From NCBI GenBank assembly GCA_003222675.1, contig QHWT01000071.1, positions 62,001 through 126,000 of the forward strand: a stretch of DNA of 64,000 nucleotides, given 5' to 3'. Shown in pieces: positions 16 to 12,700 of the stretch. Source of the DNA: Acidobacteriota bacterium. Its GTDB lineage: Bacteria; Acidobacteriota; Vicinamibacteria; Vicinamibacterales; 2-12-FULL-66-21. The notes beneath the pieces are model-generated. The model ran no database searches, was not told the origin of the DNA, and worked only from the letters and a program-made list of their open reading frames with translations. Position 1 is the first letter of the stretch; every line of letters starts with the position of its first letter. Both the position numbers and the translations under genes were made by a program.

Positions 16-909
16 GTGACGCGTGCCGGCGCAGGCGCTGCGGCCACGGTCTGTCTTGGCGCAGCCGTGGCGCTGCACGCGGCGCAGGACGCACGATATC
101 CTTCGCCTGCCATCGATCGTCCCGAGCTTCTCTACGTGCGATCGGGTGACACGATCAAGCGGCTCGCGCTCGATTACGACGCGTTCGCGGCGGACGTGTA
201 CTGGATCCGCGCCCTGCAGCATTTCGGCGGCGAGCGGACCGCGCCGCCCGATCACGTGCGTGACTACGCGCTCCTCTACCCACTGCTCGATTTGACGACG
301 ACGCTCGATCCGTACTTCAGCATCGCGTATCGCTTCGGCGCGATTTACCTTGGCGAGCCGTATCCCGGCGGGCCGGGGCGCGCGGATCTTGCGATGACGC
401 TGCTGCGGAAGGGGCTCGCGGCACAGCCGCAGAAGTGGCAGTACATGCAGGATATCGGCTTCGTCTACTACTGGCATTTGCAGGACTACAAGTCCGCGGC
501 GACATGGTTCCAGCGCGCCTCGGAGATCCAGGGGGCTCCATCCTGGCTGCGGCCGCTGGCCGCTGTGACGCTGGCCGAAGGCGGGCATCGGAGCGCGTCG
601 CGCGCGCTCTTCGGGCAGCTTGCCGAATCCGAGGAGCCGTGGCTGCGCGACGCGGCCCGGTTGCGGCTCCGGCAGCTCGATGCGATGGACGTCATCGACG
701 CGCTCCAGGCGCGCGTGGCGCTGTATCAGCGCGAGCACCCCGGCGAGCCCGTCACGTGGCAGAAGCTCGTCGCCGCTCGTCTCGTGCCGAGCGTACCGGT
801 GGATTCCGCCGGCGTGCCTTTCATCATCGAGGCCACCGGACGCGTGACGGTGGCGCGGGAATCGCCGCTCTTTCCGCTCCCCGGGCAGAAACCGGACAAC
901 TCGTCGTGA
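16..909 (+). CDS. Secreted/anchored TPR-like protein upstream of prepilin peptidase
   Basis: 297 residues from a GTG preceded by GGAGAG seven bases upstream, so this start is credible, although the frame is open to the window edge. Residues 5-23 are a hydrophobic Ala-rich segment that looks like a signal peptide or anchor. The body is helical with TPR-like stretches around residues 90-190, where Tyr/Trp-rich motifs cover the region YMQDIGFVYYWHLQDYKSA, but no exact family can be named. Its stop overlaps the pilD start by one base, so the two are translationally coupled and it probably works in pilus or secretion assembly. The function is inferred from context only. Confidence 0.7.
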   Translation: MTRAGAGAAATVCLGAAVALHAAQDARYPSPAIDRPELLYVRSGDTIKRLALDYDAFAADVYWIRALQHFGGERTAPPDHVRDYALLYPLLDLTTTLDPYFSIAYRFGAIYLGEPYPGGPGRADLAMTLLRKGLAAQPQKWQYMQDIGFVYYWHLQDYKSAATWFQRASEIQGAPSWLRPLAAVTLAEGGHRSASRALFGQLAESEEPWLRDAARLRLRQLDAMDVIDALQARVALYQREHPGEPVTWQKLVAARLVPSVPVDSAGVPFIIEATGRVTVARESPLFPLPGQKPDNSS

Positions 910-1685
910 TGGACGTGCCGGTCGGCTTTGTGTTCGCCGTGCTCATCGCGACCGGGCTCATCGTCGGCAGCTTTCTCAACGTCTGCATCTACCGCATTCC
1001 GCGCAAGCGATCGATCGTGTGGCCGGCCTCGCGCTGCGCGTCCTGCGAACGTCCGCTCGCGTGGTTCGAAAACCTGCCCGTGCTCAGCTACGCCGCGCTA
1101 CGGGGGCGCTGCCGCACGTGCGGCACGCGCATCTCGATCCGATATCCGATTGTGGAGCTCGTGACGGCCGCCGCCTTCGCACTCGATTTCCTGGCGTTCG
1201 GGCTCACGCCGCTTTTTGCCGTGCGGGTGTTGTTCGCCTGCGCGATGATCGTGCTGTTCGCGATCGATCTGGAGCATCAGCTGCTGCCGAACGTGATCAC
1301 CGTGCCCGGCAGCCTCATCGGCTTTCTCGCGAGCCTCTTTCTTCCGCCGGGGCCGGCGATGTCGCTTGCGGGGATCGCGGCCGGCGGAGGATTGTTGTGG
1401 CTGATTATCGAGGTGTGGCTCCGGCTTCGCGGCGTCGAGGCGATGGGCTTCGGCGATGTGAAGATGCTGGCAATGATCGGCGCGTTTCTCGGGCTCAAGC
1501 TGGCGATCCTGACGTTCATCCTGTCGTCGCTCATGGGCGGGGTGATCGGCCTCTTCGTGATCGCGACGCGCCGCGGCGGGATGGCGACTGCGCTGCCGTA
1601 TGGGACGATGCTCGCCGTCGCGGCGTTCATCGCGAGCGTCGCGGGAGAGCGGCTCATTGATTGGTATGTGCATCTGTATCTGTAG
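909..1685 (+). CDS. pilD: Prepilin peptidase / N-methyltransferase (A24 family)
   Basis: 258 residues. This is a polytopic inner-membrane aspartic protease that cleaves type IV prepilin leaders after Gly and methylates the new N-terminal residue. The cytoplasmic zinc-binding loop has two CxxC pairs (C43/C46 and C68/C71). The two catalytic aspartates are D120 (FAIDLEH) and D183 in the GFGDVK motif. The start chosen is the ATG that overlaps the upstream stop by one base. An in-frame upstream extension to 435 is open but runs through the TPR gene in another frame and has no signature. Its substrates are probably the four prepilin-like proteins encoded 1.5-4 kb downstream. Confidence 0.95.
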   Translation: MDVPVGFVFAVLIATGLIVGSFLNVCIYRIPRKRSIVWPASRCASCERPLAWFENLPVLSYAALRGRCRTCGTRISIRYPIVELVTAAAFALDFLAFGLTPLFAVRVLFACAMIVLFAIDLEHQLLPNVITVPGSLIGFLASLFLPPGPAMSLAGIAAGGGLLWLIIEVWLRLRGVEAMGFGDVKMLAMIGAFLGLKLAILTFILSSLMGGVIGLFVIATRRGGMATALPYGTMLAVAAFIASVAGERLIDWYVHLYL

Positions 1686-1737: not shown

Positions 1738-3006
1738 ATGACTCGTAGCGGCTACTTGCTCCTCGGCCTCACGGCGATCGTCGGCATGCTGGCGGCGGTG
1801 CTGGCGTTCGCCGTGCTGCGGTTGTTTGCCGCCGCGCGCGCGGCGGCGAAAGCGGAGAAGACCGAAGGGACGGAGACGGCCTTCATGGCCGCGGCCATGG
1901 AAGACGCGGTGCAGCGCCTGCGCGACCAGGAGCGCGCGATGAAGGCGCGCGCGGAAGCATCCGAGCGGTTGAGCAGCGAGATCATCGCGAGCATGACGTC
2001 GGGGCTGCTCGTCGTCAGCGAGGATCGTCACGTGCGCTCGCTGAATCCCGCGGGACGCAAGATGCTGGCCCTTCCCGAAGCGGACTGGTCGGGTGAATTC
2101 CGGGAGGTGCTCGTCGGCGCGGCACCACTTGCCGATGTCGTCGAAGAATGCCTCACATCCGCGCGTCCAATCGTGCGGCGCACGATCGCGCTCAAAGGAG
2201 CCGGCGCGGCGCATCTTGGCGTGACCGCATCGCCCATTCGCGACGAAACGGGGCGCGCGCACGGCGCGATGTGTCTCTTCAGCGATCTGAGTGAAATCGT
2301 CGAGCTCGAAGATCAGCTGCGCCTGAAAGACAGCCTCGCGCGCCTTGGCGAGCTGACGGCGGGCATCGCGCACGAATTCCGGAACGGCCTCGCGACGATC
2401 CACGGATACGCGCGGCTGCTGGACCTCGAGCGGCTGCCTGCCGACTTCCGTCCGTACGTGCAGGGCATTCGCGACGAGACCGAGGCGCTCGGCCAGGTCG
2501 TCACGAACTTTCTGAACTTCGCGCGGCCAACCGAGCTGGCGCTGGCGCCGGTGGACATGGCCGCGATCGCGGACCGTGCGGCGGAGGAAATCCGCGGCGA
2601 GGCGCGCTCACGCGGCGGCGACGTGAACGTGCGCGGCGAGTTCGTCCCCGTCGATGGTGATGAAGTGCTCCTGCGCCAGGCCTTCAGCAACTTGTGCCGC
2701 AACGCGCTCGAAGCGTGCGCCGACGCGCGAATCAAGCCGCACATCACAATCGAGGGAGTCCGCGACGAGGCGCAGGGCGTGCTGCGCGTCAGCGTGATCG
2801 ACAACGGCCCGGGCATCAACGAGACAATCGCGCCGCGGATGTTCCGCCCGTTCGTCACCACCAAGGCCCGCGGCACCGGTCTCGGACTCGCCCTCGTTCA
2901 GAAGATCATCGTCACGCACAACGGGCGCGTGGCCGCGCAGCCCGAGACGGGTGGCGGCGCGCGCTTCGTGGTCACGCTGCCGCTCCGCGACCCGACGCTT
3001 CCATAA
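1738..3006 (+). CDS. PilS/NtrB-like sensor histidine kinase
   Basis: 422 residues. One N-terminal membrane segment (about 6-28) is followed by a coiled stretch (45-80), a PAS-like domain (about 80-190) and a complete HisKA-HATPase core. The phosphoacceptor is H212 in AHEFRNGLATIHGYARLL. The N box is at N322 (NLCRNALEA), G1 is DNGPGI from D355, and G2 is GTGLGL at 379-384. This is the domain order of NtrB/PilS kinases whose partners are sigma-54 activators. The NtrC-type regulator at 11198 has no kinase beside it and is the obvious partner. The gene follows pilD and precedes the minor pilins. Confidence 0.88.
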   Translation: MTRSGYLLLGLTAIVGMLAAVLAFAVLRLFAAARAAAKAEKTEGTETAFMAAAMEDAVQRLRDQERAMKARAEASERLSSEIIASMTSGLLVVSEDRHVRSLNPAGRKMLALPEADWSGEFREVLVGAAPLADVVEECLTSARPIVRRTIALKGAGAAHLGVTASPIRDETGRAHGAMCLFSDLSEIVELEDQLRLKDSLARLGELTAGIAHEFRNGLATIHGYARLLDLERLPADFRPYVQGIRDETEALGQVVTNFLNFARPTELALAPVDMAAIADRAAEEIRGEARSRGGDVNVRGEFVPVDGDEVLLRQAFSNLCRNALEACADARIKPHITIEGVRDEAQGVLRVSVIDNGPGINETIAPRMFRPFVTTKARGTGLGLALVQKIIVTHNGRVAAQPETGGGARFVVTLPLRDPTLP

Positions 3007-3025
3007 TTGTTACGAACCGTAACAA
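3007..3025. promoter_or_regulatory. Perfect palindrome, candidate activator (enhancer) site
   Basis: TTGTTACG, three bases (AAC), then CGTAACAA: an 8-bp perfect inverted repeat centred at 3016. It begins one base after the kinase stop and lies about 130 bases upstream of the -12 element of the sigma-54 promoter at 3135, the usual distance for an NtrC-family enhancer. Binding by the regulator encoded at 11198 is inference. Confidence 0.45.
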
Positions 3026-3027
3026 AA

Positions 3028-3044
3028 GCGGGCATCCAGCCCGC
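3028..3044 (+). terminator. Hairpin after kinase gene
   Basis: GCGGGC, loop ATCCA, GCCCGC: a perfect 6-bp stem 22 bases after the kinase stop. It has no T-tract, so it is a weak terminator candidate or part of the regulatory region. Confidence 0.25.
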
Positions 3045-3134
3045 ATACGGCCCTGTAATCGGCCGTTCGGCGCGACAGGTAAGCCTCCACAATCAAATAA
3101 GTTAGCTGGTTCCGGACAACCGCTGGTCCGGCTG

Positions 3135-3150
3135 TGGCAACGCCATTGCT
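3135..3150 (+). promoter_or_regulatory. Sigma-54 (-24/-12) promoter of the minor-pilin operon
   Basis: TGGCAACGCCATTGCT matches the RpoN consensus TGGCACG-N4-TTGCW with exact GG-to-GC spacing. The predicted transcription start is near 3161, just before the first pilin gene. It sits between a PilS-like kinase and pilins, with an NtrC-class activator in the same locus. Confidence 0.75.
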
Positions 3151-3162
3151 CAGATTGAAGGC

Positions 3163-3714
3163 ATGCGGCGGATGTTGAACCACGACGCGCGCGGGTTTTC
3201 ACTCATCGAGCTGGTGCTGACGTTGGCAATAGCTGCAACCCTGGCGGCTATCGCGGTGCCTGCGTTCAGCTCCGTGAGCGATTCTACAAAGCTTTCCAAT
3301 GCCGCCCAGCAGGTGGAGCGCGAGTTGCAAAAGGCGCGAATGAAAGCGGTCGCGAACAACACACCGCTTCGATTCCGCACCAACTGTCCGTCCACAGGCT
3401 ATTTCCGGATCGTGGAGCTGCTCGGCACGAGCGCCGATACGCCCACGACGCGGTGTGACGCGGCGACCTATACATGGCCCGCCGCCGACACCGACTTGTC
3501 GACGACACCGAATTTCGACGGACCGGTGCGGCAGATGTTGAACAGCGCAACGGTCACCACAGCCTCGATCGAATTCCGTCCCGACGGCACGGCGTGGGAT
3601 ACGTCGAGCGGTACGGCCACCGCGATCACCTCATCGATCACGATCACGGTGACGCGCAGCGGCAAAACGAAAGCGATTACGGTGAATAACCTTGGCAAAG
3701 TCTTACTCCAGTGA
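3163..3714 (+). CDS. Minor pilin, FimT/GspH type
   Basis: 183 residues. A type III (prepilin) leader ends in Gly, followed by FSLIELVLTLAIAATLAAIA with Glu at +5, the signature cut by PilD. The rest is a GspH/FimT-like globular domain rich in Thr and Ser with two Cys. Minor pilins of this type prime assembly and cap the pilus tip. Two starts are possible: ATG 3163, or ATG 3172, which gives an 8-residue leader and fits better if transcription starts near 3161. The gene overlaps the next pilin by 23 bases, showing a tight operon. Confidence 0.85.
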   Translation: MRRMLNHDARGFSLIELVLTLAIAATLAAIAVPAFSSVSDSTKLSNAAQQVERELQKARMKAVANNTPLRFRTNCPSTGYFRIVELLGTSADTPTTRCDAATYTWPAADTDLSTTPNFDGPVRQMLNSATVTTASIEFRPDGTAWDTSSGTATAITSSITITVTRSGKTKAITVNNLGKVLLQ

Positions 3715-4288
3715 ACGGGGCTTCAGCCTTGCGGAAGTAGCCGTCGCGACCGGCATGCTGGCGGTCGTGTCGCTCGGCGTCGCGCAGATGTTCGCGCTGT
3801 CGACCGAGAAGAATCTTGCCGCGAAGCACCAGGTGTCGACCACAACGATGGCGACGCAGAAGATGGAGCAGTTGCGCGGGTTGACGTTCTCTTACGACGG
3901 CGGCGGGCTCGGGTTGCCTGTCACCGACACGACAACGAACCTGACGCTGTGCACTCCCGACACGACCGGCCACGGCCTCGACCCGTCACCAGCGACGCCG
4001 ACCGCGAATGCGTCGCTCGAATCGAACACCCGGGGATACGTCGACTTTCTCGACGGGCGCGGCACCTGCGTCTCCGCGAGCGGAGGCACCACGGCGCCGT
4101 CGGGCTCGGTGTATACGCGCCGCTGGGCGATTCAGCCGCTGCCGACCAACCCGAACAACTCGCTGGTCTTGACGGTCCTCGTCACGCCGACTGCCAAGGA
4201 AAGCCGCCGGACTATTTCATCGGACGGCCGCACGCGGCTCGTCGAGGACGCGATGCTCATCAGCGTGCGCACGAGGAAGGCACCATGA
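3692..4288 (+). CDS. pilV: Minor pilin, PilV-like
   Basis: 198 residues starting at a TTG inside the previous gene. The leader MAKSYSSERG is followed by FSLAEVAVATGMLAV, a clear prepilin cleavage site with Glu+5. No ATG or GTG in frame would keep the leader. The C-terminal part is a typical poorly conserved PilV-like domain with Cys pairs. The order FimT-PilV-PilW-PilX-PilY1 is the conserved minor-pilin cassette that forms the priming complex. The gene ends with a four-base ATGA overlap with pilW. Confidence 0.82.
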   Translation: MAKSYSSERGFSLAEVAVATGMLAVVSLGVAQMFALSTEKNLAAKHQVSTTTMATQKMEQLRGLTFSYDGGGLGLPVTDTTTNLTLCTPDTTGHGLDPSPATPTANASLESNTRGYVDFLDGRGTCVSASGGTTAPSGSVYTRRWAIQPLPTNPNNSLVLTVLVTPTAKESRRTISSDGRTRLVEDAMLISVRTRKAP

Positions 4289-5364
4289 CGCGCGAACACG
4301 GCTACTCGCTGATCGAGGTGCTCGTGTCGATGGCGATCATGATGGTCATCACCGGCGCGATCTTTCAGCTGGTGAACCCGTCGCAGTCCACCGCGCAAAT
4401 CCAGCCGGAAGTACAGGACATGCAACAGCGGATGCGTGTCGGGGCCGACACGCTCTTCAAGGATCTCGTCATGGCCGGCGCCGGCCCCTACCAGGGCGCG
4501 GTGACCGGCTCGTTGATGGGATTCTTTGCCCCGATCATTCCACGACGCACGGGCAAGACGTCGCCGGACTCGTACACCGCCGCATTCGACGACCGCCTCA
4601 CGATCACGTACGTGCCGAACACGTACTCGCAGACCTCGATTACCGATCCCATGCCGTCGCCATCAGCCGAACTCAAGGTTGCCAATCAGGCGAACTGCCC
4701 CGCCGGGCAGGAGCTCTGTGGCTTCCACGAAGGCGACGAGGTCATCATTTTTGACTCGAGCGGCCACTTCGATACGTTCACGATCACCCAGGTGCAGGAC
4801 TCAGCCGGTCACCTGCAGCATCGCGGGCAGGACTTCAGCTACGGGTATCAGCCCGGCGCCTCGATCACGCAGGTGAAGTCGCACACGTATTATTTCGACT
4901 CAACCAATCGTCAGCTCCGCGATTACGACGGTGACGATGGCGACTACCCGGTCGTCGACAACGTAGTCGGCTTGAAATTCGAGTACTTCGGCGACCCCAG
5001 TCCACCGACCGTCCCGAAGCCTCCGTCAGGTGTCGCGAACTGTCTTTACGATTCGCTCGGGAACTACACCGCCAGCAGCATGACCACGCTGACGACGGGT
5101 GGCGGATCTCTTTCGCCGCTGCCCGTTTCGATGTTCGCGGACGGTCCATGGTGCGGCGGCGGCTCGAACCAGTTCGACGCCGATCTCTACCGCGTGCGGA
5201 AGGTCAAGGTGACGCTCCGGATCCAGACGCCGCTCGCGGCGTTGCGCGGCCGCGATAGCACGCTCTTCGCGAATCCCGGCACCAGCGTGTCCGGTCAGAA
5301 GTTCATTCCAGACCTCGTGACGTCGTTCGAGATTGCGCCGCGCAACATGAATCTGGGCCGCTGA
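4285..5364 (+). CDS. pilW: Minor pilin, PilW-like
   Basis: 359 residues from the ATG at 4285, which has a GAGGAAGG ribosome site four bases upstream and overlaps the pilV stop (ATGA). The leader MTREHG is followed by YSLIEVLVSMAIMMVITGAI, a prepilin motif with Tyr at +1 and Glu at +5. The length matches PilW. The large C-terminal domain has four Cys. It is expected in the tip complex with PilV, PilX and PilY1. The open frame extends upstream to 3949 but lacks pilin features there. Confidence 0.85.
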   Translation: MTREHGYSLIEVLVSMAIMMVITGAIFQLVNPSQSTAQIQPEVQDMQQRMRVGADTLFKDLVMAGAGPYQGAVTGSLMGFFAPIIPRRTGKTSPDSYTAAFDDRLTITYVPNTYSQTSITDPMPSPSAELKVANQANCPAGQELCGFHEGDEVIIFDSSGHFDTFTITQVQDSAGHLQHRGQDFSYGYQPGASITQVKSHTYYFDSTNRQLRDYDGDDGDYPVVDNVVGLKFEYFGDPSPPTVPKPPSGVANCLYDSLGNYTASSMTTLTTGGGSLSPLPVSMFADGPWCGGGSNQFDADLYRVRKVKVTLRIQTPLAALRGRDSTLFANPGTSVSGQKFIPDLVTSFEIAPRNMNLGR

Positions 5365-5366
5365 TC

Positions 5367-6170
5367 ATGACTCACCAACCTGCGACGATCGATCGGCTCA
5401 AGCGCGAAGAAGGTACAGCCCTCATCATTGCCCTGATGGCGACGATGCTGCTCACTGCGCTCGGGATGACGCTCGTGCTCACGAGCAACACCGAGACGAT
5501 GATCTCGGGCAACTACCGCAACAGCCAGGAGGCGCTGTACGCCGCAGATGCAGCGGTCGAGCGCGTCATGCAGGATCTGCTGCTCATCCCGCGCTGGAAC
5601 GACATCCTCACGGGCAACTCGACGATCACTCCGGCATGTGCCGGCGTCTCGACGTTCACGCCGGTATCGTCGACGCTCTCGGGTTTCATCGACAGCACGA
5701 CGACGCCGACGATTCCGGACAGCGGTCAGTCGATCAATCTGCTGAACGCCACGTGCACGCTGCAGAAGAGCACTGACACGCTGAACCTGTGGGGAGCGAA
5801 CAATCCCGCGTGGCGGCTATTCGCGTACGGCCGCATGCAGTCCATGCTGCCGAACAACACTATCGACAGTCAGATGTATATGGCGGTGTGGGTTGCTGAC
5901 GATCCGGCGGACAACGACGGGAATCCCTCGACCGACGCGAATGGAACGCTCACGCTACATGCGGAAGCCTACGGACCCTCGGGAACGCGGAAGGTGATTG
6001 AAGTCACGGTGGCGAAGACGTCTGGCACGGAAATCGAGCGCGGTCAGATCGCACAGCGCGGGCAGGACGAACTCAATCAGCGCGCCCGCAAGGCGGCCGT
6101 GCAGACGCCCGGCAAAGCGCTGTCCAACATGCAGATGGGTGTCCGCCCGGGCGGAATGGTGGTGCAGTGA
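5367..6170 (+). CDS. pilX: Minor pilin, PilX-like
   Basis: 267 residues starting three bases after pilW. The N-terminus has EEGTALIIALMATMLLTALG followed by NTETMISGNYRNSQEALYAADAA, the PilX N-terminal signature, where the cleavage-site Gly is followed by Thr-Ala rather than Phe. Family members start the mature protein in the same way. The C-terminal tail (about 215-267) is charged and Gln-rich. The stop overlaps the pilY1 start (TGATG), so the genes are coupled. Confidence 0.83.
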   Translation: MTHQPATIDRLKREEGTALIIALMATMLLTALGMTLVLTSNTETMISGNYRNSQEALYAADAAVERVMQDLLLIPRWNDILTGNSTITPACAGVSTFTPVSSTLSGFIDSTTTPTIPDSGQSINLLNATCTLQKSTDTLNLWGANNPAWRLFAYGRMQSMLPNNTIDSQMYMAVWVADDPADNDGNPSTDANGTLTLHAEAYGPSGTRKVIEVTVAKTSGTEIERGQIAQRGQDELNQRARKAAVQTPGKALSNMQMGVRPGGMVVQ

Positions 6171-9100
6171 TGCGACGCTTGCGGCATTTCTTGACTCCGC
6201 TCGGTGGGGCCTCTCTAGATTCCCTACCTCCCGCCTTCGCTCCAGCGTTTCGACGGAGCTACGGCGCGGCAGGCCGCTGCGCGCCCGCGGCCACCTTCGG
6301 CGACTTCGCTCCGCCGCGGGCTCGCGGCCGCAGGCGCGTGCGCGCGGCGAAAGGGATTCTCTCGGTCCTGGCAGTCCTGTGCTGGACGGTCAGCGCCTCG
6401 GCGCAGCTCGATCCGCTGACGATCCTGCGCCGCGTTCCGCCAACCGTCATCGTCGTGTTCGACACGTCGCTCGAAATGCTGACCGACGGCGCCGACACCT
6501 TCTACGATCCCGGATTCTATTCCTCCACCGCGGATCCAACAGTGATGAACGCGTTCGCGGCGGCGTCGCCGCCGATCGGAGCCGCGAAGACCTACCGTCG
6601 CGTCTTCCGGAATTTCCACTACGCGGTATCGCCCGGCAAGTACCAGGCCGATCGCATCGCGCCCGTCGCGGCGACGTGGGATCCGTCGAATGCGCTGACA
6701 TCCAACGCGGTCGCCGATACGACAACGTACTTCGCGAACACGCGGTGGCAGGTCGCGCGCAACGGCCTCGCGCAGGCGCTGACGGAAACGAATACCTCCG
6801 CCGCGCGCTGGGGTCTGCTGCGTCTGCGCCAGAAGAGTCCCGCGTGGCGCTCGACTCCGGGGGGCACGGCCGCGGGCGGCAGCGACTGCGACAAGCCGGT
6901 CACCATCCTGACAGACCCGACGCAGGCGCTCTACGGCGACACGACCCCCTGCAACGCAGGAGGCCTCGGCAAGTACGCGACCTACGCGCCGCTCCTCGGC
7001 GCCGGCGCCGCAGCAGATGCGGGATATGCGCAGTCCACCGCGCCGAGCGGCACTGTCGTCGTGACGCCGGGCGCGAACAACGCGACCGCGATGTACAACG
7101 TCGTCGCGGCGCAGGCCGGTAACCCCTCGGGAATCATTCCCGCGAGCGTGGGCGGTCGGACAGGGACGACCGACTACGCCGATCGTCCGCTGAGCTATGC
7201 GCTGGACGACGCGAAGGCTGCGGTGATGTCGGCAATGACGGGAGACTCCGCGGCAAACCGCACCTGCCGGAACTACATAATCGTGCTGGTGACGGGCGGA
7301 CAGGATTCCGGCGACGCGACGTACGTCGGCGCGAACAACGCCGCGACACGCGCGACCCAGTTTCTGACGATCACGTCGTCCGGCACGACGCGCAGCGTGC
7401 CGATTCACGTCATCGGCATCAAGGTCAAGGCTGCCGAGGAGGCGCAGCTGCAAAGCATCGCAACCAACAGCCGCGGCGTGTATCACAACGTCACGACGGA
7501 ATCGGAAGTGACGCGCTGGGTGAACTACGCCGTGCAATCCGGCTACGCCCGCCAGGCCGACATCGATGCGGGGAACCCGAGCGAGTACGTGACGGTCAGC
7601 CCGATTGTCGGCACCGTCAATCTGACCGCCGGCAAGGACTCGGCGGGCGCGGCGCTGCCGAACGATGTGGTGCACATCGGCGGCGTGTCGACGAATGCGA
7701 TCGTGCCTCAGCGCAGCAACGTGCTGATTTCCGCCGGCTTCGAGATGCCCGGCTTCTACGGCCGGTTGCGCGCGTTCCGGACCTACAAGCCGGTCACCGA
7801 CGCCACCAAGTCGAGCGGCTACAAGTTCGTCAACGACGGCACGAAGCTCTGGCCGGATCTCGACAGCCGGCCGTCGCTGGCGGGCCAGGCGCGGACCCCG
7901 TCGAGCGCGTCCAGCCGGAATGTCTACACGTACATCCCGAATGGTGCCGGCGGCGGGTCGATCGTGGCCTTCACGACGACGAACGCGTCGACGCTGGCGC
8001 CGGCCATGAACCTCACCGCGACCGCCGCAACGACCTTGATCGACTACGTGCGGCAGCAGCCTCTTGGCGCACCGATCGGATCGACACCCGCGCTCATGGA
8101 TCCTCCCTCGCTGGATCCGCCGCCGGACAACGATTACGGACGCGCGGGCTCGACCGGCACCTTCGCGGGCGATCACGAGAACCGCCGCAGCATCCTCTTC
8201 GTTGGCCTGAACGACGGCATGATGCACGCGATCGACGCGCGCACGGGCTATGAAGTGTGGGCTTTCATTCCCTACAACCTGCTGCCGAAGCTGCGGACTC
8301 TGTACGATGGTCAGTCGGTGGAGCAGTTCGAGTACTTCGTCGACAGTTCACCGAAGCTCGCCGAAGTCAAAATCAGCGGGGTGTGGCATTCTCTGCTCCT
8401 CTTCGGGCAGGGTCCCGGCGGGATCTTCTACCAGTGCTTCGACGTCAGTGAAGCGGGTATGGGCGTGGCTCCGGACAAGGACACGCTGAGCGACGTGAAC
8501 AACCTGCTGCAGAAGTTCGATTCGCCCGACGAGTCGATCGTGTTCAGGTGGGCGTTCCCGAATTACGGACATTTCGATCCGGCGATTAAGCAGACGTTCA
8601 CACTGAGCGACGGCACCCCGGGTAACAAGCTTGTTCTCTGGGGCGATCTGAGCGCGAGCGCCACCTATGCGGAGAAGACCGTCGGGTATACCTGGTCCGA
8701 TCCTGCGGTCGGCCCGCTCGACTCCACGCGCTCGGTGAACGGCGTCGTCGTCGGCTCGGGATATTTCCCCGACATCGAGTCAGCCATCACCAACCGTGGC
8801 GTATCGGGGCCAAAGGCAGGCACCACGATGTTCGTGCTCAACGCGGACACGGGAGTGTTGGTGGGGAATTCGACGGGCGCGACGTGCGGCACCGTCAGTG
8901 GCACGAGCGGCAGCGGCACCGGGTGTCTGTCGGTCGGTGACGTCAGCAACGCGCGCAAGAACGCGCTGCACGCGGACCCGACGGCGGCCGGCGATTATGG
9001 ATCGCCCGTAGTCAACAAGGCCTACATCGGCGACATCGATGGCAAGTACTGGAAGTTCGGCTTCGACAGCACGGGCGCGCTGACCGCGAACCTGATGGTC

Positions 9101-9727
9101 GACACCGGTGTGCCGATTTACGCATCGTCCGCGCTGTTGTTCGTGGGCAGCACCGACGTCTACATGTTCTTTGCGACGGGCAGCGACTCGCTCCCGACGT
9201 CGACGTCGGGAGGAACGGGCACGTTCAGGCTGTACGGTCTGAAGGACAATTCGCCCGCGTCGGGAGCGACGACCAAGTTCACGATCGATCTGGCGAGCGT
9301 CACGCAGTCCGGCGGGCTGGCGAACGGCGAGCGGCCGTCGACATCTCCGACGGTCGCAGGTGACATCGTTTTCTACACGTCGACGACCGAAGTCGCCGCA
9401 ACGCCCTGCGTCGACTTCACGGCGAATCTGTATGCCGTGACCTACTCGGGCAGCGCCGCATACGATGCGAACAATAACGGGCGGCTGGACAACAACGAGA
9501 GCAACATCGTCAGGACGGCCACGGGCCGGGCGACCGCGCCCTTCATCGTCGACCAGCATCTGTATTTCGCGACGTCGGCCGGAAGCGGCGGTGCCGGCAG
9601 CGGCAACGGTGGCAGCACCGGCGATCGCAACGGCGCGAAGATCGAGGCGTTCGGGGATCCTGAAGACTTCAACAACGGCGTGGGCCAGGTCGGCGTGCGC
9701 ATTCTCTCGTGGCGGGAAATCAGGTAG
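6170..9727 (+). CDS. pilY1: PilY1-like type IV pilus tip adhesin
   Basis: 1185 residues. A secretion signal (KGILSVLAVLCWTVSASAQ) is followed by a von Willebrand A-like region (about 85-430, with the strand VIVVFDTS) and a C-terminal PilY1 beta-propeller (about 600-1185, with motifs such as FVGLNDGMMHAID and KVLYVGDIDGKYWKF-like strands). PilY1 caps the pilus and mediates adhesion. The signal peptide starts only at residue 61. Residues 1-60 are Arg/Pro-rich and encoded by a repeat-like segment. Translation could instead start at GTG 6338. ATG 6170 was chosen because it overlaps the pilX stop. Confidence 0.85.
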   Translation: MRRLRHFLTPLGGASLDSLPPAFAPAFRRSYGAAGRCAPAATFGDFAPPRARGRRRVRAAKGILSVLAVLCWTVSASAQLDPLTILRRVPPTVIVVFDTSLEMLTDGADTFYDPGFYSSTADPTVMNAFAAASPPIGAAKTYRRVFRNFHYAVSPGKYQADRIAPVAATWDPSNALTSNAVADTTTYFANTRWQVARNGLAQALTETNTSAARWGLLRLRQKSPAWRSTPGGTAAGGSDCDKPVTILTDPTQALYGDTTPCNAGGLGKYATYAPLLGAGAAADAGYAQSTAPSGTVVVTPGANNATAMYNVVAAQAGNPSGIIPASVGGRTGTTDYADRPLSYALDDAKAAVMSAMTGDSAANRTCRNYIIVLVTGGQDSGDATYVGANNAATRATQFLTITSSGTTRSVPIHVIGIKVKAAEEAQLQSIATNSRGVYHNVTTESEVTRWVNYAVQSGYARQADIDAGNPSEYVTVSPIVGTVNLTAGKDSAGAALPNDVVHIGGVSTNAIVPQRSNVLISAGFEMPGFYGRLRAFRTYKPVTDATKSSGYKFVNDGTKLWPDLDSRPSLAGQARTPSSASSRNVYTYIPNGAGGGSIVAFTTTNASTLAPAMNLTATAATTLIDYVRQQPLGAPIGSTPALMDPPSLDPPPDNDYGRAGSTGTFAGDHENRRSILFVGLNDGMMHAIDARTGYEVWAFIPYNLLPKLRTLYDGQSVEQFEYFVDSSPKLAEVKISGVWHSLLLFGQGPGGIFYQCFDVSEAGMGVAPDKDTLSDVNNLLQKFDSPDESIVFRWAFPNYGHFDPAIKQTFTLSDGTPGNKLVLWGDLSASATYAEKTVGYTWSDPAVGPLDSTRSVNGVVVGSGYFPDIESAITNRGVSGPKAGTTMFVLNADTGVLVGNSTGATCGTVSGTSGSGTGCLSVGDVSNARKNALHADPTAAGDYGSPVVNKAYIGDIDGKYWKFGFDSTGALTANLMVDTGVPIYASSALLFVGSTDVYMFFATGSDSLPTSTSGGTGTFRLYGLKDNSPASGATTKFTIDLASVTQSGGLANGERPSTSPTVAGDIVFYTSTTEVAATPCVDFTANLYAVTYSGSAAYDANNNGRLDNNESNIVRTATGRATAPFIVDQHLYFATSAGSGGAGSGNGGSTGDRNGAKIEAFGDPEDFNNGVGQVGVRILSWREIR
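6233..6265 (+). repeat. Imperfect palindrome within the pilY1 5' end
   Basis: GCCTTCGCTCC and GGAGCTACGGC form an 11-base imperfect inverted repeat (9 of 11 paired) around an 11-base loop. A related word (CCGCCGTAGCCTTGGCGGA) occurs at 36441-36459. It belongs to the segment that separates the overlap start from the signal peptide. Confidence 0.4.
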
Positions 9728-10617
9728 TGGCTCAGGCAAGCGTCTGCGCGTCCTGCGGTTCGAAATTCAGCGCGGAACGCGACCGGTGCCCGCGCTGCCG
9801 TGCGCTCGTCAAGGTCGTCGATCACGTTGGGGTGGCGGCGCGGAGCCGTCGCCTGCAGAAGATTGGTGGCAGCCTGCTGTCGGTCGCCCTCGTCGCGCTG
9901 ACAGCCGTCTGGCTCCTCGCGCCGAAGAAGGAGCCGACGGCGGCGACTCCTGGGGGCCAAGATCCGCTTGCCGCACGGCGCCCGGCCGTCTCCGCACGTC
10001 CCGCCGAGGCGCCGGCGCCCGCCGAGCGCCCGTACATGGATCCAAGCGGTCGCGCGCACGAGTCGTACGCGGCGGGCGACTACGAAGCGGCGCTCAAGCA
10101 GCTGCAGCAGGCGATCGAGAAGAACCCGCGGGACGCCGAGTCGCTCAGCAACCTTGGGCAGATCCTGGTGCGGCTCGGACGTCCACAAGAGGCGCTGCCC
10201 TATTTCGACAGGGCGATCGCGTTGAACGGCGATCGATGGGCCTACGTGTTCAATCGCGCGCGTGCCGCGAGGCTGCTCGAGCGGTGGCCCGAGAGCATCG
10301 AGGGTTACCGTCGCGCGCAGGCGTTATTCCCCAATGATTACGTGACGACCTACAACCTCGCGCTGACGCTGCACAAAGCGGGCAACGAAGAGGCCGCCGT
10401 CACCGAGTACCAAAAGGCCATAGCGCTCGCGCCGGAAGACGGCGGGTTCCGGCGCGCGCTGGGTATCAGTCTCGAGAAGCTGAACCGGCCCGCCGATGCT
10501 GCCGCGGCCTACACCGAGTACCTCAAACTGTCCCCGAACGCGCCCGATGCCGATAAGGTCCGGCAGCGCATCGCCCTGTTGACGTCTGGTAAACTGACCT
10601 CTGAGAGTTCCTCATGA
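9727..10617 (+). CDS. Zinc-ribbon / TPR membrane protein
   Basis: 296 residues. An N-terminal double-Cys zinc ribbon (C7/C10 and C21/C24) is followed by one membrane segment (about 46-66), a Pro/Ala-rich linker and at least four TPR units (about 100-285, for example AGDYEAALKQLQQAIEKNP and LGRPQEALPYFDRAIALNG). The start taken is GTG 9727, which overlaps the pilY1 stop; GTG 9709 is also in frame. It is cotranscribed with pilY1 and probably a scaffold for pilus assembly, but the precise role is unknown. The last four bases overlap the next gene. Confidence 0.72.
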   Translation: MAQASVCASCGSKFSAERDRCPRCRALVKVVDHVGVAARSRRLQKIGGSLLSVALVALTAVWLLAPKKEPTAATPGGQDPLAARRPAVSARPAEAPAPAERPYMDPSGRAHESYAAGDYEAALKQLQQAIEKNPRDAESLSNLGQILVRLGRPQEALPYFDRAIALNGDRWAYVFNRARAARLLERWPESIEGYRRAQALFPNDYVTTYNLALTLHKAGNEEAAVTEYQKAIALAPEDGGFRRALGISLEKLNRPADAAAAYTEYLKLSPNAPDADKVRQRIALLTSGKLTSESSS

Positions 10618-11183
10618 AGCGCATGTTTTCGGTCTCTATCATGCTCATGTTCGTGGCCGGCACTGTTCCGGCGCGCGCGCAGTCGCTCGCAGACGTTGCC
10701 AAGAAGGAAGCCGATCGCCGCAAGGCTGCGGGCACGGCGCCGAAGGCGGCTCCCAAGAGGGTCTACACGAACGACGATCTGAAGCCCGCCCCCTCGCCGT
10801 CGCCGGGCTCGATTACGACGCCCGCCGCGTCCGACGCCAAGGACGCGTCGAAGGAGAAGGATGCGGCCCAGAAAGATGCGGCGAAAAAGCCCGAGGAAGA
10901 AAAAGGGGAAGAGTACTGGCGCGGGCGCATGTCTCAGGCGCGTGAAGCGCTCCGGCGAAACGAGATGTTCCGCGAGGCGCTCCAGACCCGCATCAACTCC
11001 CTGACGAGCGACTTTTCCGCGCGCGACGATCCGTACCAGCGCGCGCAGCTTGCGGACGATCGCCAGAAAGCCGTGGCCGAGATGGCGCGAGTGACGCAGG
11101 AGATCGACGCGCTCAAGAAGCAGATCGCGGATATCGAAGAAGAAGCGCGACAGGCCGGCGTCCCGCCGGGCTGGCTCCGCTGA
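10614..11183 (+). CDS. Secreted Lys/Ala-rich coiled-coil protein
   Basis: 189 residues. A signal peptide (about 1-22, ending ARAQ) is followed by a low-complexity Lys/Ala/Pro segment (30-100) and a C-terminal coiled coil (about 105-180) with regular heptads such as AEMARVTQEIDALKKQIADI. I do not recognise a named family. It starts with an ATGA overlap on the TPR gene and is followed 14 bases later by the sigma-54 activator, so it is the fixed last structural gene of the pilus operon. A periplasmic structural or tethering role would fit but is inference. Confidence 0.65.
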   Translation: MKRMFSVSIMLMFVAGTVPARAQSLADVAKKEADRRKAAGTAPKAAPKRVYTNDDLKPAPSPSPGSITTPAASDAKDASKEKDAAQKDAAKKPEEEKGEEYWRGRMSQAREALRRNEMFREALQTRINSLTSDFSARDDPYQRAQLADDRQKAVAEMARVTQEIDALKKQIADIEEEARQAGVPPGWLR

Positions 11184-11197
11184 ACGCAATCGTTCGC

Positions 11198-12586
11198 GTG
11201 CCTGCTCCCGCCCAGATTCTTATCGTCGAAGACAAGGATTCGCTGCGGACGATGCTTCGGCACGCACTCGAGCGGCAGGGCCATGCCGTGCTCGAAGCTG
11301 CGGACCAGCCCGCCGCGATGCGCCTCTTACAGCAGGCGCTTCCCGCCGTCGTCTTGTCCGATCTCCGCCTCCCTGAAGGTGACGGCTTCGGTGTGCTGCG
11401 CGCCGCCAAGGAGATCGACGCGGACATCCCGGTCATCGTCATGACGGCCTACGGCAGCATCGAGGACGCCGTCGCGGCGATGAAGGAAGGCGCCATGGAC
11501 TTCCTCGCGAAGCCCATCGATCCCGATCACCTGCTGCTGCTCGTCTCCCGCGCGCTGGAGCAGCGACGCATCGTCACCGAGAACTTGCTGATGAAGGAGG
11601 AGCTCGCCGTGCGGCGCGGCGCGCCGCAGCTCGTGGGTGAGGATCCGTCGCTCCGGAAGGTGTTCGCGTCGATGCAGCGCGCCGCGGCCACGGATACAAC
11701 GGTCCTGCTCGAAGGCGAAAGCGGCACCGGAAAGGAGCTCTTCGCGCGATCGCTGCACGCGCTCAGTCCTCGCACGGACCAGCCGTTTGTCGCCATCAAC
11801 TGCGCGGCAATTCCCGAAACGCTTCTCGAGACGGAGCTTTTCGGCCACGAGAAAGGGGCGTTTACGGGCGCGGTTGCCCGCAAGCCAGGCAAGTTCGAGG
11901 TGGCGCATCGAGGCACGCTGTTCCTCGACGAGATTGGCGATCTGCCGCTCTCGCTGCAGGCGAAGATCCTGCGCGCGCTCGAAGAGAAGCGCTTCGAGCG
12001 CGTGGGCGGGACGGCCTCAGTCCAGGTCGACGTGCGGCTCGTGGCGGCGACCAACAAAGGCCTGCGCGCGGCGGTGGCGGCGCGCCGCTTCCGTGAAGAT
12101 CTCTACTTTCGCTTGTCGGTGTTCCCGATCACAGTACCGCCGCTCAGGGAGCGTCCCGGCGATATCCCGACGCTGGCGCGATTCTTCGTCGATCGCTTCT
12201 GTCGCGATCTGAAGAAAAAACCGCTGGTGCTCTCGCCCGCGGCGCTGGAGCACCTGCAGAAGTATCGCTGGCCGGGAAACGTGCGCGAACTGCAGAACTG
12301 CATCGAACGCGCCGTCATCCTCGCCGATGGCGACACGATCCTGCCGCGGCATTTGAATCTGTCGTTTGCCGAGCCGCCGGTCGACGAGGCAGTGTCGCCG
12401 TGGTCGCAGATCGATCTCTCCGGCAGCCTCGCGGAAGTCACGCGCCGGGTTACGGCGGAAGTCGAACGACGCAAGATCGAAGAGATCCTCCGCGAAGCGG
12501 GCAACAACAAAGGACGGGCCGCGGAACTGCTGCAGGTGAGCTACAAGACGCTGCTGGTCAAGCTGAAAGAGCACGGGATCGAGTAG
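11198..12586 (+). CDS. NtrC/PilR-type sigma-54 response regulator
   Basis: 462 residues from GTG 11198. The receiver domain has acidic pocket ED at 11-12 and phosphoacceptor D55 (LSDLRLPEGDG). The AAA+ domain has Walker A GESGTGKE (173-180), the sigma-54 contact loop GAFTGA (220-225) and Walker B LFLDEIG (241-247). A Fis-type helix-turn-helix is at about 420-460 (NNKGRAAELLQVSYKTLLVKL). It activates RpoN promoters. The likely kinase partner is encoded at 1738 and the likely target is the promoter at 3135. Confidence 0.92.
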   Translation: MPAPAQILIVEDKDSLRTMLRHALERQGHAVLEAADQPAAMRLLQQALPAVVLSDLRLPEGDGFGVLRAAKEIDADIPVIVMTAYGSIEDAVAAMKEGAMDFLAKPIDPDHLLLLVSRALEQRRIVTENLLMKEELAVRRGAPQLVGEDPSLRKVFASMQRAAATDTTVLLEGESGTGKELFARSLHALSPRTDQPFVAINCAAIPETLLETELFGHEKGAFTGAVARKPGKFEVAHRGTLFLDEIGDLPLSLQAKILRALEEKRFERVGGTASVQVDVRLVAATNKGLRAAVAARRFREDLYFRLSVFPITVPPLRERPGDIPTLARFFVDRFCRDLKKKPLVLSPAALEHLQKYRWPGNVRELQNCIERAVILADGDTILPRHLNLSFAEPPVDEAVSPWSQIDLSGSLAEVTRRVTAEVERRKIEEILREAGNNKGRAAELLQVSYKTLLVKLKEHGIE

Positions 12587-12600
12587 CACGCGTCGGGATG

Positions 12601-12663
12601 CGGGGTGCGGGGTGCGGGGTGCGGGGTGCGGGGTGCGGGCTGCGGGGTGCGGGGTGCGGGGTG
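12601..12663 (+). repeat. Tandem heptamer array (CGGGGTG x9)
   Basis: Nine consecutive 7-base units, eight identical CGGGGTG and one CGGGCTG, begin 14 bases after the regulator stop. The same word is the left arm of the array inside rimO at 63393. It is followed 37 bases later by a copy of the CTTCCGCC palindrome. Confidence 0.9.
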
Positions 12664-12700
12664 CGAAGGCACCAGCTCGTTGTGCGCGTCGCGCTCGTGG

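Follow-up and report, generated by a model that had tools for sequence, protein, structure and literature searches.

The genes for the minor pilins and the PilY1-like tip protein of an acidobacterial type IV pilus appear to be switched on via a σ54 promoter and an upstream site at a fixed distance from it, an arrangement kept across the order Vicinamibacterales. In the window analyzed here (i.e., the whole 64-kb stretch of DNA), the region controlling these genes is, very likely, a dedicated σ54 circuit. In the model proposed, the kinase encoded upstream of the operon would phosphorylate the NtrC-type regulator encoded at the operon's end; the phosphorylated regulator would bind a palindrome near -145, loop to the σ54 polymerase at 3135-3150 and open the promoter. 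Transcription would then run from near 3161 through the minor pilin genes, pilY1, two more genes and the regulator gene, and translation, with only about 2 nt ahead of the first codon, would start in a near-leaderless manner. The promoter, the palindrome, their spacing, the gene order and the coupling of recognition helix and palindrome are borne out by comparison of related genomes. Regulation is little studied in the phylum Acidobacteriota, and this locus would represent a self-contained, naturally replicated σ54 circuit, in which site and reader appear to co-change while the promoter geometry is constant.

Organization and conservation of the minor pilin operon

All genes of the locus are encoded on the plus strand. 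Upstream lie a gene for a PilD-like prepilin peptidase (909..1685; Pfam A24_N_bact and Peptidase_A24) and a gene for an NtrB-like sensor kinase (1738..3006), with one N-terminal hydrophobic stretch and, according to Pfam, PAS, HisKA and HATPase domains. The operon begins with a GspH/FimU-like minor pilin gene (3163..3714; Pfam GspH and N_methyl), for which comparison with the nearest relative, G011, favors the ATG at 3163. The second minor pilin (3692..4288), with no Pfam match, is PilV-like by its sequence, including the prepilin motif ERGFSLAEV; the third (4285..5364; Pfam N_methyl), whose gene shares an ATGA overlap with the one before, is PilW-like and is followed by a PilX-like minor pilin (5367..6170; Pfam PilX_N). 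The next gene (6167..9727) encodes a PilY1-like tip protein, so assigned because it matches PilY1 of solved structure (3hx6; E 2.9e-11); Pfam gave no match. A TPR protein (9709..10617; Pfam TPR families) and a small protein with no Pfam match (10614..11183; an open reading frame with an ATGA overlap) precede an NtrC-type response regulator (11198..12586), in which Pfam identified a receiver domain, a σ54 activator AAA+ domain and a C-terminal Fis-type helix-turn-helix (HTH), and in whose sequence the GAFTGA motif can be read. Because adjacent genes between 3163 and 12586 overlap or are at most 14 nt apart, the regulator gene should be the final gene of the operon. Kinase and NtrC-type activator genes do lie on either side of the pilin genes, as stated in the first-pass annotation. 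Directly 3' of the regulator gene, a G-rich unit (GCGGGGTGC and variants) is repeated about eight times in tandem (12599-12665).

An orthologous kinase was found in 84 of 193 genomes of the class; the genomes in this and the following counts are related and not independent, and MAG assemblies among them may be broken or mixed. Wherever kinase and regulator genes share one fetched contig stretch, kinase, pilin block and regulator are co-directional, with an interval between kinase and regulator of usually 2.6-8.6 kb (8 kb in the window). The regulator start overlaps the preceding open reading frame or lies at most 53 nt from it in 41 of 45 loci. The order of kinase, pilin operon and NtrC-type regulator is conserved among the sequences compared. 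With its gene adjoining the last operon gene, the regulator is expected to activate its own expression, which would amount to positive autoregulation.

A predicted σ54 promoter precedes the first pilin gene

The sequence at 3135-3150 of the plus strand, TGGCAACGCCATTGCT, contains GG-N10-GC in a TGGCA/TTGCW context and has the correct σ54 geometry, with -24/-12 elements that read TGGCA-N6-TTGCT. While this exact pattern occurs once in the 64-kb window, a relaxed -24/-12 pattern with up to two mismatches gave 28 matches as compared to 32.6 expected, and a relaxed match by itself is not significant in 64 kb. What places the 3135-3150 site above chance is its conservation among orthologous regions, as a strong -24/-12 site (score of at least 11 within 350 bp downstream of the kinase, using a matrix that is our own approximation of the published σ54 consensus) was found 3' of the orthologous kinase in 54 of the 80 loci scored, versus 3.1 expected from dinucleotide-preserving shuffles. 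The -24/-12 spacing described in the first-pass annotation is confirmed by these data, but 12 bases rather than 13 separate position 3150 from the ATG at 3163. A gene encoding σ54 is present in the genome (PF00309 match, E 1.3e-15). A known RNA element, such as a riboswitch, upstream of the first pilin gene was also considered and rejected, as an Rfam search of this region gave no credible match.

A palindrome at a fixed distance from the promoter

The proposed upstream activator site at 3007..3025 (no strand), centered near -145, is the palindrome TTGTTACGAACCGTAACAA, which can be written as TTGTTACG-AAC-CGTAACAA. Nowhere else in the window does a site of this kind occur with three or fewer mismatches, nor elsewhere in the 7.16-Mb genome with zero or one. 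The distance from its start to the T of TGGCA is exactly 128 bp, in agreement with the approximately 130 bases initially reported. In 11 of 80 orthologous regions the palindrome is matched at 11 or more of 14 positions, whereas 0.15 would be expected from dinucleotide-preserving shuffles, and this conservation places the palindrome above chance. When all oriented loci (538 kb) were scanned, 15 palindromes that match at 11 or more of 14 positions were identified, every one of them followed by a strong -24/-12 site. In 14 of these 15 loci the distance from palindrome to -24 element is 125-129 bp, within the range for NtrC-type upstream activator sites of about 80-200 bp, the exception being L149 with 52 bp. 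In an order-wide search of 162 genomes at up to one mismatch, the palindrome was found once each in 11 genomes, while a reversed control pattern had matches in 10 of the same 162 genomes; the number of occurrences is thus ordinary, but their location is not, since 8 of the 11 are at the kinase-pilin locus. A search with a simple consensus for an IHF-like site between palindrome and promoter yielded a possible site in at most 1 of 16 loci.

In the window the palindrome touches the kinase stop codon, and it can fold as an RNA hairpin; on the minus strand, a T-rich tail follows a neighboring hairpin. These features could suggest that the palindrome serves as a terminator or forms an RNA hairpin past the kinase stop, that the -24/-12 match is incidental and that transcription of the operon comes chiefly from run-on out of the kinase gene. 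A plus-strand terminator was not found here, however, and palindromes near the kinase range in position from -32 (inside the gene) to +28 relative to the kinase stop, while in G052, G126, G132 and G142 palindrome and promoter are displaced together to 2.5-4.3 kb downstream of the kinase, again 5' of a prepilin gene. By the sequences compared, the palindrome tracks the promoter, not the kinase stop; with the distance to the promoter fixed at 125-129 bp, a terminator role is unlikely, and the run-on explanation as a whole is highly improbable, even though run-on from the kinase gene may add some expression to that from the σ54 promoter. In one cluster (L108, from G126) the promoter region is duplicated, with copies about 154 and 3853 nt past the kinase stop; the first copy has a damaged palindrome half and altered spacing, and the second is intact.

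The flanking regulator is the probable reader of the palindrome

The recognition-helix pattern [ST][YHF]KT was found in 12 of the 13 palindrome genomes with a readable helix, compared to 4 of 66 other genomes. Across the whole regulator, mutual information with the palindrome peaks at column 451, a Thr in the recognition helix (0.319; next highest, 0.236). Common descent applies to all columns alike and should not by itself pick out this residue. Because Thr451 is the best predictor among all regulator residues, the regulator encoded at 11198 probably binds the palindrome and is, on this covariation, probably its reader. In G085, the palindrome is degenerate and the regulator helix is different. 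In a phylogeny that excluded the HTH, the palindrome label, set against the genomes with a second dyad (see below), needs 5 changes, at least 3 of which are forced by well-supported branches. Several further NtrC-type regulators are encoded in the genome, including a PilR-like one beside pilA, and any of these might instead read the palindrome. We regard this as improbable, as the part that best tracks the palindrome is the recognition helix of the flanking regulator, and the genome, pilA region included, has no other such palindrome.

In the same region of the genomes without the palindrome, the top de novo dyad was GCAG-N3-CTGC, found in 11 loci compared to 0.45 expected; perfect copies were present in 11 of 47 loci compared to 0.0 expected, although this claim is weaker because the dyad was searched for after it had been seen by eye and because the helices of its presumed readers vary. 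The dyad mostly starts 85-133 bp before the -24 site. GCAG-N3-CTGC was observed upstream in L118, L130, L143, L145-L147, L160, L162, L163, L168, L171 and L173, the genomes of which have no TTGTTAC palindrome, and its positions apparently step by roughly one helical turn.

A predicted start close to the first codon

From σ54 geometry, the transcription start is predicted at 3161 (plus strand), 12 nt past the -12 C and 2 nt before the ATG, which would give a leader of about 2 nt. With the start placed in the same way in 43 loci, the first in-frame ATG is 1-6 nt past the predicted start in 32, the commonest distance being 2 nt; this recurrence across the order suggests that the mRNA should be nearly leaderless, an unusual feature on which the first-pass annotation did not comment. 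Loci of the palindrome type have more variable predicted leaders (2-17 nt) than other loci.

The window gene has a second in-frame ATG at 3172, with which the leader would be 11 nt and the gene would not be near-leaderless. This codon would give a shorter, typical prepilin leader (MLNHDARG), and leaders of 9-17 nt are predicted in several palindrome-type relatives. In G011, however, GGCATGCGGCGGAT is kept while the counterpart of the second ATG is ATC, so that the first ATG alone remains, and 38 of the 43 loci offer a single in-frame ATG, which is 1-6 nt from the predicted start in 30 of them. A true start at ATG 3172 is therefore considered unlikely, though not negligibly so, and ATG 3163 is preferred.

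Short leaders are no general trait of σ54 promoters in this genome, since the pilA gene at C60:50332, despite its strong -24/-12 site, has a GGAGGAG-containing leader of about 79 nt. That leaderless σ54 genes form a wider set across the source genome (G000) was also rejected, as TGGC-N7-TTGC-N11-16-ATG gave 18 matches there, with no enrichment over the 14 of the reversed control. We give about even chances to the combined proposal that near-leaderless σ54 promoters, with an ATG usually 13-18 nt past the -12 C, occur at this locus order-wide and that the upstream site and the regulator reading it have changed in concert, the site between two unrelated dyads. If true, translation of pilus-tip genes would need a route free of a Shine-Dalgarno sequence. 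No report of a conserved leaderless σ54 promoter was found in the open-access literature, by a search that was far from complete.

A separate PilSR-like system beside pilA

Approximately 12-19 kb upstream of the window, the genome encodes the end of pilB, pilT, pilC, a PilS-like kinase, a PilR-like regulator and three pilA-like genes (L240:1-8348, corresponding to G000:C60 about 42.5-50.8 kb). The names PilS and PilR are based here on gene order and domain matches, and in NCBIfam neither protein matches above cut-off. Of the pilA genes, the third combines a -24/-12 site (TGGCATTGCCGTTGCT) with a long leader, and the second has a weaker -24/-12 site. Past pilA, at L240:8436-16242, three consecutive paralogous large membrane proteins are encoded; the third open reading frame continues in frame into prepilin-like sequence, which a real fusion or a start-codon artefact may explain.

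Because the genome has this other PilSR-like pair beside pilA, the pair in the window would represent a second system, dedicated to minor pilins. It also departs from PilS-PilR in that its kinase has one hydrophobic stretch, its regulator is encoded 8 kb away and a different pair is found at pilA. The first-pass annotation had proposed a PilSR system with minor pilins and PilY1 as target instead of pilA; comparison supports the promoter by its conservation, the upstream site by its fixed spacing and the flanking regulator as its reader by residue 451, but the pair is probably not a retargeted PilSR, as the genome has its own PilSR-like pair. Minor pilins and PilY1 may thus be served by a two-component system of their own beside PilSR, with pilus tip and shaft controlled apart.

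Comparison with known systems

The principle of NtrC-type or two-component control of pilin and pilY1 operons is already known. AlgR, a regulator of this kind of operon, is not an NtrC-type σ54 activator. In Pseudomonas aeruginosa, FimS-AlgR controls the minor pilin operon fimU-pilVWXY1E with negative feedback from its products (PMC5979040), which resembles the window in that a minor-pilin/PilY1 operon is under two-component control apart from the major pilin, but that operon is without a comparable cis arrangement. By analogy with FimS and PilS, the signal for the window kinase is possibly the stock of minor pilins. In Myxococcus xanthus, the NtrC-like regulator HsfA binds the pilY1.1 and pilY1.3 promoters (PMC9109919), and HsfBA, like the pair proposed for the window, is a two-component system with an NtrC-like regulator that acts at operons with minor pilins and PilY1. 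However, the hsfBA genes are located apart from the pilY1 loci and control a broad regulon, whereas in the window the two genes bracket the operon, and the genome has one copy of the site.

PilR activates pilA with σ54 (PMC6058289), and Nps-Npa activates pilE in commensal Neisseria (PMC6528607). Both systems share with the circuit proposed for the window a kinase, an NtrC-type regulator, an upstream activator site, a σ54 promoter and pilin genes, but their target is the major pilin, and PilS has six membrane segments as compared to one hydrophobic stretch in the window kinase. Start-site maps of Bradyrhizobium and Leptospira include leaderless mRNAs (PMC4842269, PMC5243855), which, like the prediction for the window, start at or a few nt from the start codon; the leaderless genes of Bradyrhizobium have an extended -10 motif (PMC4842269), while the window promoter is of the -24/-12 type and conserved at one locus. 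Relative to these systems, what appears to be new is that kinase and regulator genes flank the operon, with the regulator gene at its end, that the geometry stays fixed while the dyad is switched, and that the predicted start leaves almost no leader.
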